From contig NZ_FAOO01000003.1 of assembly GCF_900070205.1 (NCBI RefSeq), forward strand, positions 41,712 to 102,802: a DNA stretch of 61,091 nt, written 5' to 3'. Origin of the DNA: Candidatus Thermokryptus mobilis (GTDB lineage Bacteria; Bacteroidota; Ignavibacteria; Kryptoniales; Kryptoniaceae). Below, piece after piece: positions 35,289-43,617 of this stretch. The notes under the pieces are model-generated. The model was not told where the DNA came from. It saw only the letters and a list, made by a program, of their open reading frames with translations, and did not search any database. How positions within the stretch are numbered: position 1 is the first letter of the stretch; each line of letters starts with the position of its first letter. Made by a program: the position numbers and the translations under genes.

Positions 35289-36395
35289 TTACTTTGCTAA
35301 AACAACCTTTTTAGCTGCTGTGTAATTTCCAGCGGTCATTCTATAGATGTAAACTCCACTTGCTACACGATTTCCGTGGTCATCCGTTCCATCCCAAGTT
35401 ACTTTATAAACGCCGGGTTCATATCTTATGCCATCAATTAAGCGTCTTACTATCTTTCCGCTCAAGTCATAGACTTCAAGCCGAACATCACATGATTTCG
35501 GTATTGAAAATTCAATGTTTGTTGTTGGATTAAATGGATTTGGATATGCTTGACCGAGGCGGAACATAAATGCGACCTCTGAGAGTTGCTCAACTTTGGT
35601 TTGGGGGTGAGCCCAGTTCGGTTTATGGCATTGGGTGCATTCCATCTTTGCTTTCACATCATCTTTATAAGCCGTCCCATGGCAAGCCATGCAGCCGGAG
35701 ATTGTACCCGGTTCTTGATATGTTGCTTGGAATTGACCCGAGAACCAGTCGTTCAAAAGTTTTACAGCGTAAGCAGCAACATCTCCAGTTAAGCGAGCGC
35801 ATCTTTCTTTTCTTTCAGTTGAGCTTGAGTTATAACCCGAGGCGTCGCACCATTTGGTCACTGAAATATGGCAGAGCACAGAACCGCAACTTGATTGAGG
35901 TAGTGGATTATCATATTTATGAACGAAAAATTGTCCACTTTGGGCATATTGGTTGCTTATGTCCGACGGGAAGAGCGTTTGGGTATACCAACCTTGAAGC
36001 TCATGGATTAGTTTATCAGCGGTTGTTTTGTCACAAACAAGCTGAATTGCAGCAGCAGCTCCTATCAACGCTCCGCAAGTTCCGCCCCATCCCGCAACTC
36101 CACCATGCCCAAAGATTAGCATATCGGTTGGAAAGGATGAAAATGGTTCGCCAATTTTTTCAGCCAATGCTTTCACAATCGCGTGAAATGCCCCGTAGGA
36201 ACAACCCTTTCCTGTCCAATAGAATTGATGTCCAAGTTTTCTTACATACTCTGGGTCAAGTTGTTGATATGGGTAGGGCCAAGTTTGTTTAGTTTCAGCT
36301 TTTGACAACTTAACAGCTGAAACCGCAAGTGCAGTTCCGATTGCCCCTTTTGTTGTGAGTTCAAGAAATTTTTTACGTGTTAATTTCCCTTTCAT
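35289..36395 (-). CDS. Split-Soret-type cytochrome c with C_GCAxxG motif and T9SS sorting domain
   Basis: A 368-residue exported protein. Residues 1-33 form a signal resembling a weak Tat signal (TRKKFLEL). The core (45-225) has the Cys pattern of the C_GCAxxG redox family: C65-S-Y-G-A-F, GGVAGWGGTCGAL with C107, C121, and SSCGSVLCH (170-176). Two heme c motifs follow, CMACH (235-239) and CTQCH (253-257). This arrangement recalls the diheme split-Soret cytochrome c of Desulfovibrio. Residues 285-368 are a T9SS sorting domain (AYPNPFNPTT, VYDLSGKIVRRL, SGVYIYRM). It should be a surface or secreted electron carrier. A sigma54-type promoter precedes it. Confidence 0.85.
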   Translation of the reverse strand: MKGKLTRKKFLELTTKGAIGTALAVSAVKLSKAETKQTWPYPYQQLDPEYVRKLGHQFYWTGKGCSYGAFHAIVKALAEKIGEPFSSFPTDMLIFGHGGVAGWGGTCGALIGAAAAIQLVCDKTTADKLIHELQGWYTQTLFPSDISNQYAQSGQFFVHKYDNPLPQSSCGSVLCHISVTKWCDASGYNSSSTERKERCARLTGDVAAYAVKLLNDWFSGQFQATYQEPGTISGCMACHGTAYKDDVKAKMECTQCHKPNWAHPQTKVEQLSEVAFMFRLGQAYPNPFNPTTNIEFSIPKSCDVRLEVYDLSGKIVRRLIDGIRYEPGVYKVTWDGTDDHGNRVASGVYIYRMTAGNYTAAKKVVLAK

Positions 36396-36437: not shown

Positions 36438-36453
36438 TGCAAAAATTATGCCA
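36438..36453 (-). promoter_or_regulatory. Sigma54 (-24/-12) promoter of the split-Soret cytochrome gene
   Basis: Minus strand TGGCATAATTTTTGCA, with the invariant GG-10-GC spacing (GG at 36452-36451, GC at 36440-36439). Expected start near 36427, giving a leader of about 32 bases. It shares the first seven bases with the other two candidates in this locus. Confidence 0.8.
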
Positions 36454-36660
36454 TGGAAATTTTTTGAATTTCTTTTGTTTTTATACAAAGTAGGGAGTTT
36501 TTGTGTTGACTTTTTTATCAGATATGTTGAGTTTTTTAACATAAATTTTTTGATTAATTATCAAAGATTTATTTAACATCTTTTCGTGGTATGTAGAATA
36601 AATCAACGGGACCCTTTCTTGGGTGTTGTTTATTTATTGATTTTACGAACGAAGAAACAG

Positions 36661-36676
36661 TGGCATATCTTTTGCA
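36661..36676 (+). promoter_or_regulatory. Sigma54 (-24/-12) promoter of the electron-transfer operon
   Basis: TGGCATATCTTTTGCA with GG-10-GC spacing (GG 36662-36663, GC 36674-36675), close to the TGGCAC-N5-TTGCA consensus. Expected start near 36687, 28 bases before the first gene. Confidence 0.85.
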
Positions 36677-36714
36677 TAAATAACTTATTGAAAAAACAAA
36701 ATCAGGATTAAACC

Positions 36715-37386
36715 ATGGTAGCACTTTTTGTAATAGCAACAATTTTGGTCTGTTTGATGATTGACTACTTTGTTCAAAGGGCTGAAAGAAAACGCGAAGC
36801 CCTTATTCGGGAGGTTGTATTAAGTCCCGATAGTTTTATTCTTCCAAGAGGTTACTTTTTTAGCAAGTTTCATACTTGGATTGAGCTTCTTTTCTCGGGT
36901 AAAATTTATATCGGCGTTGATGATTTTATAGCGAAGGTTCTAGGTAGGGTGGATTCAATTGAAGTTTTACCAGTTGGGGAAAGGGTAAAAAGTGGAGATG
37001 CCTTGTTTAAAATACGACAAGATGGGAGGGAGTTGACTTTTTGTTCGCCAATTAGCGGTAAGATTACAGCTGTAAATACTGAGGTTCTTGAAAGACCAAG
37101 TGAAATTTTGGAAGACCCGTATCTTAAAGGTTGGATCGTTATGATTGAGCCAGATGATATAGCAGTGGAATTGAAAAATCTTTTTGTGGGTAGTGAAGCG
37201 AGCCGATGGTTGAGGAGTGAGTTAAAAAGATTCAGGGAATTCATTAGCCGTGAAGCACCAAGGTTTTCTCCAACCGTTGAACCAACGCTTGCTGACGGTG
37301 GACTTATTATCAAAGGTGTCTTAGAGGGATTTGATAACGATGTATGGGAAAAATTCAAGAGGGAATTTATTGAGTTTAAAAATTAA
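36715..37386 (+). CDS. Membrane-anchored GcvH-like protein without lipoyl lysine
   Basis: A 223-residue protein with one N-terminal membrane helix (3-19) and a basic stretch after it, then a glycine-cleavage-H-like barrel (about 58-150): IGVDDFIAKVLG, VLPVGERVKSGDALF, SPISGKITAVN, and DPYLKGWIVMIEP. Aligned to GcvH, the lipoylated lysine of ESVKA is replaced by Gly in RQDGREL, so lipoylation at that place is not possible. The remaining C-terminus is unrecognised. AGGA at 36704-36707 supports the ATG. It opens a four-gene operon with ferredoxin and NrfD-type genes, so it is probably a structural or docking subunit of that membrane complex. Confidence 0.78.
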   Translation: MVALFVIATILVCLMIDYFVQRAERKREALIREVVLSPDSFILPRGYFFSKFHTWIELLFSGKIYIGVDDFIAKVLGRVDSIEVLPVGERVKSGDALFKIRQDGRELTFCSPISGKITAVNTEVLERPSEILEDPYLKGWIVMIEPDDIAVELKNLFVGSEASRWLRSELKRFREFISREAPRFSPTVEPTLADGGLIIKGVLEGFDNDVWEKFKREFIEFKN

Positions 37387-37401
37387 AAGGGAGTTTTTGA
37401 A

Positions 37402-38175
37402 ATGCAAAAATATGGAATCCTTGTTGATGTAACTCGTTGTATAGGGTGCTATGCTTGTGAAGAAGCGTGTGCTGAACGCTGGGGTAATCCATTAACAGAG
37501 TCACACCAGCTTTCGGCTATTCAAAATACCGCTGTTGAAGACCATAATGGTGTTTACCTTCCACGTTTGTGCATGCATTGTGAGAAACCCACTTGCGCGT
37601 CTGTTTGTCCTGTTGGAGCTTTCCAAAAAACTAACATTGGACCTGTCATTTATGATGCAACGAAGTGTATTGGTTGTAGATATTGTATGCAGGCGTGTCC
37701 ATTTAATATACCGAAGTATCAATGGAACAAACCTAACCCAAGGGTTACTAAGTGTGATATGTGTTATGATAGGATGAAGCAAGGAAGGGTTCCTGCCTGT
37801 GTAGAAGCATGCCCAGCAGAGGCAAGGGTTTTTGGTTTAAAAGATGATTTAATTGAAGAAGCAAGGAGAAGAATAAAGGAAAATCCCGAAGTTTATTATC
37901 CTCATATTTTCGGGGTCAAAGAAGTGGGTGGAACATCTGTGCTTTATATTGCCGATAGACCGATGCATAAGTTTGGCTTTAATCCAAACTTGCCCGAGAT
38001 TCCACTCTCACACTTCACAGAACAGATTATGACTAAAATTCCAAACTATATCTTCTGGGGCGGAACTTTACTCTTTGGTATATGGTGGATAACGAAAAGA
38101 AGGAATGAAGTTCAAAAGCTACAACGCAAGCTAAAGGAGATGGAAGAAGGAAACAAAAAAGAGGATGAAAAATGA
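37402..38175 (+). CDS. Four-cluster ferredoxin subunit (HybA/DmsB-like) with C-terminal membrane anchor
   Basis: A 257-residue iron-sulfur protein with 16 Cys in four groups: C13/16/19/23, C57/60/65/69, C89/92/95/99 and C118/121/133/137, enough for four [4Fe-4S] clusters as in HybA, DmsB or PsrB. A helix near residues 218-236 (IFWGGTLLFGIWWI) is followed by a charged tail, like HybA. Unlike HybA, no Tat signal is present, so the side of the membrane on which it sits is uncertain. The stop overlaps the start of the NrfD-type gene by four bases. It is the electron wire between the membrane quinone-reactive subunit and an unidentified partner. Confidence 0.93.
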   Translation: MQKYGILVDVTRCIGCYACEEACAERWGNPLTESHQLSAIQNTAVEDHNGVYLPRLCMHCEKPTCASVCPVGAFQKTNIGPVIYDATKCIGCRYCMQACPFNIPKYQWNKPNPRVTKCDMCYDRMKQGRVPACVEACPAEARVFGLKDDLIEEARRRIKENPEVYYPHIFGVKEVGGTSVLYIADRPMHKFGFNPNLPEIPLSHFTEQIMTKIPNYIFWGGTLLFGIWWITKRRNEVQKLQRKLKEMEEGNKKEDEK

Positions 38176-39350
38176 AAGAAGTAAAACCACCAAAATTAAA
38201 ATTTTGGACTGTCGTTTTTTGGATAATTTTAGCGCTTGGGATTTATGTTACGATTGTCAGATTCACAAAAGGACTTGGAGCGGTGACAAATTTAAGTGAT
38301 AATTTCCCATGGGGATTATGGATAGGTTTTGATGTTCTCTGTGGGGTAGGACTTGCAGCTGGCGGTTTTGTAATGGCTTCAGCTGTTTATATATTTAACC
38401 TTGAGGATTATAAAAGCATATTACCATCAGCAATTTTAACCGCTTTCCTTGGTTATATCTTGGTTATCGTCGCTTTAATTTATGACCTTGGCAAACCATG
38501 GAATATATGGCATCCGATAATTATGTGGAATCCAGAATCGGTGATGTTTGAAGTTGCTTGGTGTGTTATGCTTTACACAACAGTGCTTGCCCTTGAGTTT
38601 AGCCCGATGTTGTTCCAAAAACTTCGCCTCGTAAAGCCTAAAAAGATAATACATAACTTGACAATACCTCTTGTTGTAGCTGGGGTTATTCTCTCAACCC
38701 TTCATCAATCATCACTTGGCTCGCTTTATTTAATAGTCCCTGAAAAACTGCATCCCATATGGTATTCAAGCAATTTGCCGTATCTTTTCTTTTTATCTGC
38801 TGTCGCTGTTGGTCCAGCGATGGTGACAATTGAATCTTATTTAAGTTCAAGGGCTTTTAAAAGAGAAATTGAAATTCACATTTTGTCAAGGCTAGGTAAA
38901 GTCAGCGCCGTGGCGTTGATGGTCTATTTTGTGCTTAAGGTGGAGGATATAGTCAATTATAAACTTTTCAAGTATATTTTCGCATTCAATTATGAATCGG
39001 TGATGTTTTGGCTTGAGTTCTTGCTTGGGGTAATTCTGCCGATAGTTTTATTGGCAAATTCAAAAGTCAGAGAAAGTAAAAAATGGTTGTTTTACGCTCA
39101 GCTGACAACAGTTCTCGGATTTATCCTTAATAGATTAAATGTTAGTATTACCGCACTTGAAAGTTATACACAAGCTAGATATTTCCCCAAGTGGACTGAG
39201 ATAGTGATAACTATGTTTATGGTTTCACTTGGTTTTGCTGCATTTAGATTTATAGCTAAAACTTTGCCGGTTTTCCCGGAAGAGGTTAAAGAGAAAGAAA
39301 GATTTGAGGGATATTTCGTAATACCGATAAAGGAGGTCTTCAAAGAATGA
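38172..39350 (+). CDS. HybB/NrfD-type polytopic membrane subunit
   Basis: A 392-residue protein with about ten hydrophobic segments. The first part, NFPWGLWIGFDVLCGVGLAAGGF, is the HybB hallmark; HSxx-type loops follow (LHQSSLGSLYL) as in other HybB/NrfD proteins, which exchange electrons with quinones and may move protons. It pairs with the ferredoxin gene upstream (4-base overlap) and overlaps the second GcvH-like gene by four bases. Normal partners such as a NiFe hydrogenase or a molybdopterin reductase are not encoded in the window. Confidence 0.93.
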   Translation: MKEVKPPKLKFWTVVFWIILALGIYVTIVRFTKGLGAVTNLSDNFPWGLWIGFDVLCGVGLAAGGFVMASAVYIFNLEDYKSILPSAILTAFLGYILVIVALIYDLGKPWNIWHPIIMWNPESVMFEVAWCVMLYTTVLALEFSPMLFQKLRLVKPKKIIHNLTIPLVVAGVILSTLHQSSLGSLYLIVPEKLHPIWYSSNLPYLFFLSAVAVGPAMVTIESYLSSRAFKREIEIHILSRLGKVSAVALMVYFVLKVEDIVNYKLFKYIFAFNYESVMFWLEFLLGVILPIVLLANSKVRESKKWLFYAQLTTVLGFILNRLNVSITALESYTQARYFPKWTEIVITMFMVSLGFAAFRFIAKTLPVFPEEVKEKERFEGYFVIPIKEVFKE

Positions 39351-39940
39351 TTTCGGAACAAGTGCAAAATATCGTTTTTAATTGTGTTGAAAGTTTAAAA
39401 AATAAGAAGTTTCCGGAGGATAGGTATTATACGAGGTTGTTGACTTGGGTGAAGGTTGAAGGTGATATAATAAGTGTTGGATTGAGCGAGCCGTTCGTTT
39501 GTCTTTTCTTTCCTTTAATTGAGGTGATCTATCCAAATATTCCGGTCAGAGTTGGTGTTGATACGCCATGTGCTTGGGTGAAACACAGGGATGGCATTTT
39601 TTCAATTCGTTCCCCAGCAAAGGGAAATTTGTTTAAATTAAATGAAAGAATTCTAACTGAGCCAGACATTTTAAATAAAGACCCATATGTTGACGGTTGG
39701 CTTTTTGAGATTGAACTTGATAAAGGGGAAAATTTGAAATGGTTGATGGATAGTATTGAGTTTGCTGAATTTTTCAATAATAAACTTGATAAATTCAAAA
39801 GGGAAGTGATGAGATTTATTGACAGGCATTGCGGTGACGAGATGATGGTTCAAAATGGCGGTGTGGCGATAGTTACATTAAAAGATTTGCTTGGTCCAAA
39901 AAGATATCTTTTAATAGCCCGGAAGGTTTTTGAGTTTTAA
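39347..39940 (+). CDS. Soluble GcvH-like protein without lipoyl lysine
   Basis: A 197-residue protein whose first 125 residues follow GcvH in order: YYTRLLTWVKVEGDIISVGL, then PCAWV, SPAKGNLFKLNERILTEP, and KDPYVDGWLFEIE. The lipoyl-lysine position (ESVKA in GcvH) reads HRDGI, with Asp replacing Lys. The last 60 residues are not GcvH-like and include CGDEMMVQNGG. It has no membrane helix. It overlaps the NrfD-type gene and ends the operon. It is a second, divergent paralogue of the protein at 36715, presumably another subunit of the same complex. Confidence 0.78.
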   Translation: MISEQVQNIVFNCVESLKNKKFPEDRYYTRLLTWVKVEGDIISVGLSEPFVCLFFPLIEVIYPNIPVRVGVDTPCAWVKHRDGIFSIRSPAKGNLFKLNERILTEPDILNKDPYVDGWLFEIELDKGENLKWLMDSIEFAEFFNNKLDKFKREVMRFIDRHCGDEMMVQNGGVAIVTLKDLLGPKRYLLIARKVFEF

Positions 39941-40028
39941 GGTGAATTTCGAGACAAAATGATTCGGTATATGACAATAAAGTCACAATATGACATTAAA
40001 ATTTGATTGAAAATTATTGATTTTTTAA

Positions 40029-40044
40029 TGGCATAAGGGTTGTA
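40029..40044 (+). promoter_or_regulatory. Probable sigma54 promoter of the sensor kinase operon (one deviation)
   Basis: TGGCATAAGGGTTGTA: GG at 40030-40031, ten bases, then GT (40042-40043) instead of the usual GC. The -24 half is identical to the other two candidates, and the distance to the gene start gives the same leader length of about 28 bases. A dyad TGAC-6-GTCA lies upstream at 39972-39985. If real, the regulator controls its own genes. Confidence 0.55.
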
Positions 40045-40082
40045 ATAAATTTAGATGGTAGTGAAAATAATTTTTAGTGAAA

Positions 40083-41690
40083 ATGAAAGTTTTTCATTCA
40101 CTTACCTTTAAGTTGTTTCTTTTGATTTTTGTAATTGTTTTTGGGGTCACGGTGATTTCTTCAATTTTGATCGTTAGATGGCAGTTAAGTCAATACATGT
40201 CCATAGTGAGGAAAAATGCTTTAATGACAAGCGACCTTATAAAGCGAGCAACCCATTATAGCATGTTACATAACAAAAGGGAAGATATTTACCAAATTAT
40301 AAATATGCTTGGGAAGCAATCAGAGATTGAAGCAATTAGAATCTACAACAAGCAAGGTGAGATAACATTTTCAACCATACCTACTGAAGTTGGGAAAGTT
40401 GTCTCTATGGAAAGCGAGGCATGTAATGTCTGTCATATCGGTGATAAAATTAAAGTTCCAGCTGAATCATCGCAACTTACACGGGTTTTTCACTCTCGGA
40501 CAGGACATGAAATTCTAGGGGCGATAAATCCCATACGAAATGAAGAATCATGTTATACATCTGATTGTCATGTTCATAAAAAGGAGCAGACAATACTTGG
40601 CGTTTTTGATGTGATTTTTTCCCTTGAGAGTGCCAAAGCTAATGCAGTCAAATTAAGCATGATTCAATATGCAAGTGGTTTATTTATGCTTCTTGCCATT
40701 TCATTGCTTGTTTTTATTTTCACTTTGAAATTCGTTAATGCTCCATTAAGAAAGTTAATACAAGGGACTCTTGAGATAATGAGCGGAAATCTTGATCACA
40801 GGATTGATATAGATACAAGCGATGAAATTGGGACTTTGGCGAAGTCATTCAATAAGATGACGGAGGAATTGAAGCGCGCACATGAGGAACTTTTGGGCTG
40901 GGCTAAACTTCTTGAACAAAAGGTGAATGAAAAAACAGCAGAGCTTCAGAGGGCTTATGCTTATATGGTGCATATTGAAAAAATGGCTTCGCTTGGAAAA
41001 CTTGCAGCTACGGTCGCACACGAGCTTAACAATCCACTTGAAGGTATCTTAACTTATGCGAAACTTTTGAAAAGGCGCTTGGAGAATAATTCTAAAATTG
41101 AAGAGGAAAGAGATGAGATTTTAAGCGAGTTATCAATAATTATTGATGAGACATCAAGGTGTGGAAATATAGTTAAAAATTTACTCTTGTTTTCAAAGCA
41201 GAGAGTTGGCGAGTTTAAAGATGAAGATATCGGACAGATTATCAAAAGAAGTATCGCGTTGATTTCGCATCATCTTGAAATGAACAATGTCCGGCTTGAG
41301 TTGGATATGCCAGAGCATCCTGTTATCGTTTATTGTGATGCACAACAAATAGAGCAGATGCTTCTAGCAATGGAGATAAACGCAATTGAGGCAATGCCAG
41401 AGGGAGGAACTTTAAGGATTGAGTTAAAAGAAGTTAACAGTGATAAAATTCAGGTAAAGGTAATTGATACGGGGGTGGGGATTCCTGAGAATGTGTTACC
41501 GCACATTTTTGAGCCGTTTTTCACGACGAAGAAAGAGGGGAAGGGAACAGGGCTTGGTTTAGCTGTGGTTTACGGAATCGTTGAAAGGCATGGCGGGCAA
41601 ATATCGGTTGAATCAAAGGTAAATTTTGGAACTACTTTTACAATTGTATTGCCAAAAAAATTAAACCCTGAATATGAACGAGAAATTTAG
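40083..41690 (+). CDS. Heme-binding-type sensor histidine kinase
   Basis: A 535-residue kinase. One helix at about 10-32, an extracytoplasmic domain to about 190, a second helix (about 197-218), a HAMP region, then a HisKA domain with phosphoacceptor His313 (AHELNNPLEG) and an ATPase domain with DTGVGIPEN and GKGTGLGLAVVYG. The sensor domain holds CNVCH (114-118) and CYTSDCH (157-163), a CxxCH and a CX4CH heme c signature, within the pattern ILGAINPIRNEESC typical of heme kinases of anaerobes. It should sense redox state or a heme ligand in the periplasm. GTG 40077 is an alternative start. It overlaps the regulator gene by 17 bases. Confidence 0.9.
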   Translation: MKVFHSLTFKLFLLIFVIVFGVTVISSILIVRWQLSQYMSIVRKNALMTSDLIKRATHYSMLHNKREDIYQIINMLGKQSEIEAIRIYNKQGEITFSTIPTEVGKVVSMESEACNVCHIGDKIKVPAESSQLTRVFHSRTGHEILGAINPIRNEESCYTSDCHVHKKEQTILGVFDVIFSLESAKANAVKLSMIQYASGLFMLLAISLLVFIFTLKFVNAPLRKLIQGTLEIMSGNLDHRIDIDTSDEIGTLAKSFNKMTEELKRAHEELLGWAKLLEQKVNEKTAELQRAYAYMVHIEKMASLGKLAATVAHELNNPLEGILTYAKLLKRRLENNSKIEEERDEILSELSIIIDETSRCGNIVKNLLLFSKQRVGEFKDEDIGQIIKRSIALISHHLEMNNVRLELDMPEHPVIVYCDAQQIEQMLLAMEINAIEAMPEGGTLRIELKEVNSDKIQVKVIDTGVGIPENVLPHIFEPFFTTKKEGKGTGLGLAVVYGIVERHGGQISVESKVNFGTTFTIVLPKKLNPEYEREI

Positions 41691-43023
41691 CATCTTAATT
41701 GTTGATGATGAATTTATAGTTAGAGATTCACTTTCAAAATGGTTCATTCAAGATGGTTATAGGGTTGGGGTTGCGGAAAATGGAGCGCAGGCACTTAAAA
41801 TGATGAATGAAGGTCCTTGGGATGTGATTTTCATTGATATAAAAATGCCAGGGATGGATGGACTTGAACTTCAGAAAAGAGTAAAAGAAATTGACCCAAC
41901 GGCGATCATAATTATTATAACGGCGTTTGCTTCAGTTGATTCAGCTGTCAAGGCGTTGAAAGAGGGAGCTTACGATTATGTAACTAAACCAATTGACCCC
42001 GATTATCTTTCTCATCTTGTTAAGAATGTGATAAAGCAAAAGAAGATGATGAATGAAAACGTTAAGCTGAAAGAACAGGTCTCTGAACTTATGATGCCAG
42101 ATGAACTTGTTGGCGAAAGCCAGGAGATCAAAAGGGTGATTGAACTTGCAAAAGCAGTTGCGCCAACTGATACAACTGTTATGATTAGAGGGGAAAGTGG
42201 CGTTGGTAAAGAGTTGATAGCGAGGTTGATTCACTCTTATAGTCATAGGAGATACTTCCCGTTTATATCAGTTAATTGTGGCGCAATTCCAGATACTTTG
42301 CTTGAGAGTGAATTGTTTGGGCATGAGAAAGGAGCTTTTACGGACGCGCTTTACAGAAGGAAAGGGAAATTTGAAATTGCAGACGGTGGGACAGTTTTCC
42401 TTGACGAGGTTGGAACTATAAGTTTGAAAATGCAAGTGCAACTTTTAAGGGTTCTTGAGACGAAACAATTTACGAGGGTTGGGGGGAATGAGGTCATCAC
42501 AAGCGATTTCAGGGTTATATGTGCCACAAATTGTGACCTTGAAAACCTGGTCAAGGAAGGAAAGTTCAGAGAAGACCTCTATTATCGTCTCAATGTATTC
42601 ACGATATTTGTCCCACCGCTTAGGGAAAGACGTTCTGATATACCTTTGATAGCAAATTATTATCTTAAGAAGTTCTCTGCTATAATGCACAAGCCGGTGA
42701 CGGAGATTTCGCCAGAGGCGATGGATTTATTAATTAGATATAATTGGCCCGGGAACGTCCGCGAGCTTAGAAATGCTATAGAAAGGGCGATGGTCTTAGC
42801 AAAACCCCCAGCTATAAGACCCGAGGATTTACCAATTCGTCCATGTGATGAAATAGAACCGGAAGACGAAACTCTTGAAGCAGTTGAAAGGGCACATATA
42901 TTGAAAATTTTGAATAAGACAAATTGGAATATATCACGCTCGGCGAGAATACTCGGAATAGATCGCGTGACACTGTATCATAAAATTGAAAAGTATAGTT
43001 TAAAGCGAAACAGGGTCAATTAA
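41674..43023 (+). CDS. NtrC-family sigma54-dependent response regulator
   Basis: A 449-residue activator: receiver domain with phosphoacceptor Asp55 (FIDIKMPG), AAA+ sigma54-interaction domain with Walker A GESGVGKE (173-180), Walker B GGTVFLDEVG (238-247) and the sigma54 loop reading GAFTDA (220-225) rather than the canonical GAFTGA, and a Fis-type helix-turn-helix at the end (NWNISRSARILGIDRVTLYHKI). It is the partner of the heme kinase encoded just upstream. The three sigma54-type promoters in the same locus are its natural targets. Confidence 0.95.
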   Translation: MNEKFSILIVDDEFIVRDSLSKWFIQDGYRVGVAENGAQALKMMNEGPWDVIFIDIKMPGMDGLELQKRVKEIDPTAIIIIITAFASVDSAVKALKEGAYDYVTKPIDPDYLSHLVKNVIKQKKMMNENVKLKEQVSELMMPDELVGESQEIKRVIELAKAVAPTDTTVMIRGESGVGKELIARLIHSYSHRRYFPFISVNCGAIPDTLLESELFGHEKGAFTDALYRRKGKFEIADGGTVFLDEVGTISLKMQVQLLRVLETKQFTRVGGNEVITSDFRVICATNCDLENLVKEGKFREDLYYRLNVFTIFVPPLRERRSDIPLIANYYLKKFSAIMHKPVTEISPEAMDLLIRYNWPGNVRELRNAIERAMVLAKPPAIRPEDLPIRPCDEIEPEDETLEAVERAHILKILNKTNWNISRSARILGIDRVTLYHKIEKYSLKRNRVN

Positions 43024-43029
43024 AATTTT

Positions 43030-43617
43030 ATGCCTTCGGCTGATAGACTTAAAATTTTGGTCGTCCCAATATATCCCGTTGATTTTTCACTTGTCTTGGG
43101 GCTACTTCCAGCGCTCAAGGAAATGTTTTTTTGTGATGTTCTGCTTGAAAATACAAACCATATCAATCTTTCTTTTGCCTATGATAATTCACGCGGACAG
43201 TTCAACTCAACAAAGATAATCTCCTTACTTTCCGACAGGTTCAAAGATTTTAACGGCAAAGTCGTTGGGGTAATTTCAGTTGATTTGTTTATTCCAGTTT
43301 TAACTTATGTTTTCGGTGAGGCGCAACTTGGTGGTAAGGTTTCTGTAGTTTCAACTTTCAGATTGAATGAAATCGCTTATGGGTTACCAGAGAATAAAAA
43401 ATTGACGCAGGAACGATTAATTAAGGAAGTCCTCCATGAATTGGGACACAATTTTGGTCTTTTGCATTGTGAAGATTATCTTTGCGTGATGCACTCTTCA
43501 AGCACGGTTGAGGAGGTTGATTTAAAAAGTGATAGATTTTGCAGAAATTGCAAGCATAAGGTAGATCTCGCTTTATCTTCCCAGTTCAATTATCATCAAG
43601 ACGGCGAACAAAACTGA
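43030..43617 (+). CDS. amzA: Archaemetzincin-type zinc metallopeptidase
   Basis: A 195-residue protein with the archaemetzincin signature: H136-E-x-x-H140-x5-H146 followed at once by Cys147, then Cys152, Met154, and Cys171/Cys174 making the structural zinc site. These are presumed cytoplasmic aminopeptidase-like metalloenzymes of unclear role. It lies six bases after the regulator gene, so read-through from the redox operon is likely. Its last 45 bases overlap the convergent YwiC-like gene. Confidence 0.92.
   Translation: MPSADRLKILVVPIYPVDFSLVLGLLPALKEMFFCDVLLENTNHINLSFAYDNSRGQFNSTKIISLLSDRFKDFNGKVVGVISVDLFIPVLTYVFGEAQLGGKVSVVSTFRLNEIAYGLPENKKLTQERLIKEVLHELGHNFGLLHCEDYLCVMHSSSTVEEVDLKSDRFCRNCKHKVDLALSSQFNYHQDGEQN

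Follow-up and report, generated by a model that had tools for sequence, protein, structure and literature searches.

Three sequences resembling sigma54-dependent (−24/−12) promoters occur in a single locus of Candidatus Thermokryptus mobilis: before a cytochrome gene, before a divergently oriented electron-transfer operon and before a sensor kinase–response regulator pair. This raises the question of whether they are real promoters and whether they form one regulon under the regulator encoded beside them. In the window, the whole stretch of 61,091 nucleotides that was analysed, the three 16-mers were found at the positions given in the original prediction, each just 5' of a start codon, and all three begin with the same seven bases, TGGCATA (Table 1). 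Judged from the sequence, one explanation very probably holds as a whole: three real sigma54 (RpoN) promoters, one regulon, and a haem-sensing kinase–regulator pair acting through a triad of repeats.

Table 1. Positions of the genes, promoter sites and repeats of the locus in the window.
Feature	Position	Strand	Basis or remark
Split-Soret-like (C_GCAxxG_C_C) c-type cytochrome, type IX secretion sorting tail	35289..36395	minus	PF09719, Por_Secre_tail
Putative sigma54 −24/−12 promoter of the split-Soret-like cytochrome gene, TGGCATAATTTTTGCA	36438..36453	minus	pattern match and conservation
Putative enhancer copy 1, TGTTGACTTTTTTATCA	36504..36520	no strand	imperfect, 11.9 bits
Putative enhancer copy 2, TGTTGAGTTTTTTAACA	36525..36541	no strand	21 bp from copy 1
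Putative enhancer copy 3, TGTAGAATAAATCAACG	36592..36608	no strand	67 bp from copy 2; imperfect, 16.5 bits
Putative sigma54 −24/−12 promoter of the electron-transfer operon, TGGCATATCTTTTGCA	36661..36676	plus	orthologous site in nearly all relatives
First GcvH-like subunit, hydrophobic N-terminus	36715..37386	plus	PF01597
HmcB/HybA-like 4Fe-4S subunit	37402..38175	plus	profile matches
NrfD/HmcC-like membrane subunit	38172..39350	plus	PF03916; NF045714 below its cut-off
Second GcvH-like subunit	39347..39940	plus	PF01597
Candidate remote enhancer copy (tentative), TGCTGAATTTTTCAATA	39763..39779	no strand	17.0 bits, unconserved in relatives
Putative sigma54 −24/−12 promoter of the kinase–regulator pair, TGGCATAAGGGTTGTA	40029..40044	plus	position conserved in nearer genomes
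Sensor histidine kinase: Cache-like extracytoplasmic domain, HAMP, HisKA, HATPase	40077..41690	plus	
NtrC-type sigma54-activating response regulator, Fis-type HTH	41674..43023	plus	

The three sites have GG at −24 and GC (or close to it) at −12 with the fixed spacing. The distance to the start codon is 42 bases for the cytochrome site (ATG 36395), 38 bases for the operon site (ATG 36715), and 32 (GTG 40077) or 38 bases (ATG 40083) for the kinase site. Assuming a transcription start 11 bases past the last base of the 16-mer, the predicted leaders are 32, 28 and 22 or 28 bases long, respectively. Leaders of about 28–32 bases, as originally proposed, were thus obtained for the cytochrome and the operon; the kinase fits only if ATG 40083 is its start codon.

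The proposal that such hits are unlikely by chance was borne out: TGGCATA-N4-TTGYA has three matches in the window against 0.02 expected (TGGCATANNNNTTGYA: exactly three in 61 kb; mean 0.02, and never three, in 100 dinucleotide-preserving shuffles). Since TGGCATANNNNTTGYA was derived from the three hits themselves, genome-wide tests with less biased patterns weigh more. In the 2.42 Mb genome, TGGCAYNNNNNTTGCW had 14 matches (reversed pattern: 1) and TGGCAYNNNNNTTGYW had 25 (reversed pattern: 8). The genome-wide scan was done by pattern searches and not with a weight matrix; the sigma54 weight matrix was based on the consensus. The genome encodes one rpoN (E = 1.2e-54), so the objection that sigma54 itself is lacking fails. 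It also has about ten full-length sigma54 activators, with ten strong hits to the activator domain. That the sites are chance or AT-rich look-alikes, with transcription starting from ordinary sigma70-type promoters, is most improbable. With one mismatch allowed, the window holds 8 matches against 4.1 expected, and several exact genome-wide matches fall within genes (those of TGGCAYNNNNNTTGYW probably by chance), but exact matches far exceed expectation, the positions of the sites are conserved, and an enhancer is associated with them.

As to whether sites elsewhere in the genome cluster near redox genes, the TGGCAYNNNNNTTGYW matches directly 5' of genes include the three window sites and two further multihaem cytochromes, beside the intragenic matches already mentioned; gene names outside the window were assigned by eye from translations. 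The −24/−12 site before the orthologue of one of the regulon cytochromes was kept in 7/7 same-genus genomes. Good −24/−12 sites also precede dnaK, flgB and a 2-oxoacid:ferredoxin oxidoreductase-like operon in the same genome (L002, L009, L012). In one multihaem cytochrome gene, which follows TGGCATAAATTTTGCA, an in-frame TAG (L003:1800-1802, G000:C1) stands where two relatives have an arginine codon; either the gene is broken or the assembly is in error.

Upstream activator sites for a divergent promoter pair are present in the form of an inverted repeat, YGTTGAA-N3-TTCAACR, of which three copies, spaced 21 and 67 bp, stand between both promoters. Copies 1 and 2 are the sole match of a stringent pair pattern in this genome (2.4 Mb), and across 61 genomes this pattern matched twice, both times at this locus (control: 0). 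The repeat was also recovered when, in 30 genomes, every inverted repeat with arms of 5 bases was counted in the DNA above the operon without a prior motif. GTTGA-N5-TCAAC ranked first (9 copies vs 0.0 in shuffles), and TTGAA-N3-TTCAA was also among the top-ranked (8 copies, 0.06 expected); the two are one single palindrome. A matrix trained on one half of the clades found 5–8 copies per kb of upstream DNA in the other half, compared with 0.05–0.2 per kb of coding DNA. Searching the genome for single enhancer copies was of no help: with two mismatches allowed, there were 904 matches per strand, and 566 for the control.

The geometry of the triad was retained across the class: 21–23 bp, then 66–67 or 74–81 bp, with the sigma54 site downstream. 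The longer class of the second spacing exceeds the shorter by roughly one helical turn. Among relatives, the sigma54 site before the operon almost always had the highest score in the 520 bp; one sister family has it 150–200 bp upstream of the first gene. The whole divergent arrangement is kept in Blastocatellia (Acidobacteriota), where the triads of two loci (L158, L159) have spacings of 21–22 and 67 bp and are flanked by a sigma54 site on either side. The minus-strand cytochrome promoter was kept in three same-genus genomes that have the gene (L071-L073) and in L158-L160 (Acidobacteriota or unclassified bacteria, gene present). In L074, which is without the divergent cytochrome gene, the promoter score drops to 5.6 bits. 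More generally, every inspected locus with a divergent cytochrome had the divergent promoter; in those without, its score was <10 bits. Loci with a different gene order (L102-L108) entered the counts of promoters and enhancers only where this was possible by way of a GcvH-like gene. The sigma54 reading thus gained support from sites at orthologous positions in relatives, from a palindrome that is repeated between the divergent sites and tracks the regulator, and from the further sites before multihaem cytochromes. In one family (L098-L101; also L097) a second pair of enhancer copies, spaced 23 bp, lies across the expected transcription start, in L098-L101 about 12 and 35 bp past the start of the −24 site; this extra pair is placed as if for feedback repression.

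The association with the regulator was assessed in 66 further loci, by presence or absence of the repeat pair and of a regulator gene downstream. The pair was found in 23/34 loci with the regulator downstream and in 2/14 without it (Fisher p = 0.0012); 11 of the 34 regulator-bearing loci were without the pair by the pair rule used. Two of the further loci (L205, L218) are on the same contigs as training loci (L091, L092). After dropping them, the pair was present in 22/33 loci with and 1/13 without the regulator (p = 0.0006); the compared genomes share ancestry, so that these counts are not independent draws. The remaining exception, L202, which has the pair and no regulator downstream, has a kinase and a regulator located upstream. 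Because the pairs follow the regulator in further genomes, we read the repeats as its enhancer, and this regulator would be the protein that binds them. It is improbable that the sites are real but the triad is bound by another activator, with the kinase–regulator pair controlling something else. Such a substitution could draw on the roughly ten sigma54 activators of the genome, on the resemblance of Fis-type HTH domains to one another and on the kinase promoter having no conserved repeat; it has to contend with the co-occurrence of the repeats with this very regulator across further genomes, and with the class-wide position of kinase and regulator directly after the operon.

The kinase promoter is the weakest link of the mechanism, since it is without a conserved enhancer of its own. 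The site itself is conserved in nearer genomes: yGGCAy-N5-TTG precedes the kinase gene in 19/19 of them (the window and 18 relatives; 0.045 in shuffles) and was absent from control gene starts (0/93). It was not found in 14 more distant genomes. No conserved palindrome was found within 350 bp of the promoter, and a de novo palindrome search above the kinase gene returned nothing. Since these observations, together with TGGCATAAGGGTTGTA reading TTGTA and not TTGCA in the window, would suit a promoter that answers to a different activator or to the remote upstream triad, there may be two regulons and not one. We consider this rather unlikely, as the kinase promoter has TGGCATA in common with the other two and, in this genome, one strong single repeat copy (TGCTGAATTTTTCAATA) lies 250 bp above it, inside the second GcvH-like gene. 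The kinase–regulator operon is probably self-activated.

The gene order GcvH–FeS–NrfD–GcvH–kinase–regulator–archaemetzincin recurs across the class, and Acidobacteriota and other phyla have variants of it. Two GcvH-like proteins are encoded within this membrane redox operon. In the first, the lipoyl-lysine position is taken by Gly, the ESVK of the solved GcvH aligning with RQDG, which suggests that the fold may be used structurally and not as a lipoyl carrier; in the second, the lipoyl lysine was judged by eye alone. The regulator gene is followed by an archaemetzincin-family metalloprotease gene (43030-43617, plus strand), as in most loci and in several phyla. No earlier description of the operon, in Kryptonia or by its GcvH/NrfD/HmcC content, was found among the titles and abstracts listed, which does not prove that there is none. 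The Fe-S and membrane subunits resemble HmcB and HmcC of the Hmc/HybAB/Qrc-type NrfD respiratory complexes, but score below the equivalog cut-offs and are flanked by the two GcvH-like subunits, the first without the lipoyl lysine. The divergently encoded protein is similar to the split-Soret cytochrome c of Desulfovibrio (NF047622; residues 25-258 match, 189 bits), but is below the cut-off of 400 and has a type IX secretion sorting tail.

As originally proposed, the regulator is a sigma54 activator, with the complete NtrC-type set of domains (Response_reg, Sigma54_activat, HTH_8). Its loop reads GAFTDA instead of GAFTGA in the window and its genus, and GAFTGA in nearly all other families; GAFTDA is one of the variants listed for D. 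vulgaris as still compatible with activity (PMC4641369). The loop variant, the repeat triad and the want of a conserved enhancer close to the kinase promoter were not part of the original prediction. The sensor domain of the kinase has two c-haem motifs, CXXCH and CX4CH, whose cysteines and histidines are invariant in 28/28 aligned sensors; both motifs were present in 36/38 further kinases. A predicted model of residues 1-285 (mean pLDDT 84.5) matched the Cache domain of WalK (4ywz; Z 13.9, rmsd 2.0, 137 residues) and also the Geobacter c-haem sensor GSU0935, so the modelled fold appears to be Cache-like. An extracytoplasmic Cache/PAS-like fold with covalent c-haem before the signalling domains is shared with sCache_heme (DUF3365/Tll0287, PF11845) and GSU0582/GSU0935 (PMC12889525, PMC3460858). 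Unlike sCache_heme, the kinase has two haem motifs and no match to the PF11845 profile, which matched 3/28 members weakly (E up to 1). According to a 2026 preprint (PMC12889525), haem-Cache domains that are fused to signalling modules act as sensors of NO. The kinase here probably responds to the redox state of the periplasm or to nitric oxide.

We hypothesize that the periplasmic sensor, with its two c-type haems, would sense either redox state or a ligand of haem, for example nitric oxide, and that the kinase would then phosphorylate the NtrC-type regulator. The phosphorylated regulator would bind the three palindromes, the first two of which are about two helical turns apart, and its AAA+ ring would open the sigma54-RNA polymerase held at both flanking −24/−12 sites. 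On one side this would turn on the surface cytochrome, and on the other the GcvH-like/Fe-S/NrfD complex, which would take electrons from quinol and hand them on towards cytochromes of the periplasm or the surface, the direction of flow being presumed. The kinase–regulator operon would activate itself from its own sigma54 promoter. At the level of sequence the parts are present (promoters, rpoN, activator domains, repeats, conservation and regulator co-occurrence); the contacts between them we infer. With three sigma54 sites and a repeat triad that is found again 5' of these genes in remote relatives, the locus has the look of a genuine and long-conserved switch by which a respiratory pathway is turned on and off.

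Among published systems, the DVU3142 regulon of Desulfovibrio (Ohc octahaem complex, PMC4641369) comes closest: there, too, a sigma54 activator adjoins a cytochrome/Fe-S/membrane-subunit electron-transfer operon with −24/−12 promoters and conserved activator sites. In that system the regulator gene and the operon are divergent; in the present locus the operon is followed by a haem-sensor two-component pair, its composition is different and the enhancer is a phased triad. The main text of a multi-phylum survey of sigma54 regulons (PMC12316311) makes no mention of cytochromes, Ignavibacteria or Acidobacteria. The module, its sensor type and an enhancer geometry conserved over such a distance are new. 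We tentatively suggest, as a possibility a little short of an even chance, that a respiratory module moves from phylum to phylum and brings along a sigma54 control unit of its own, consisting of a two-haem Cache sensor kinase, an activator and a helically phased three-site enhancer, whose geometry is kept between Kryptonia/Ignavibacteria and Acidobacteriota, and to which the extra pair of L097-L101 would add a feedback shut-off. With this sensor, the recently described haem-Cache domains gain a form with two haems, and the triad provides a DNA signature for finding the rest of the regulon. The locus offers a testable control circuit for an electron-transfer pathway of an uncultured lineage and of many Acidobacteriota.
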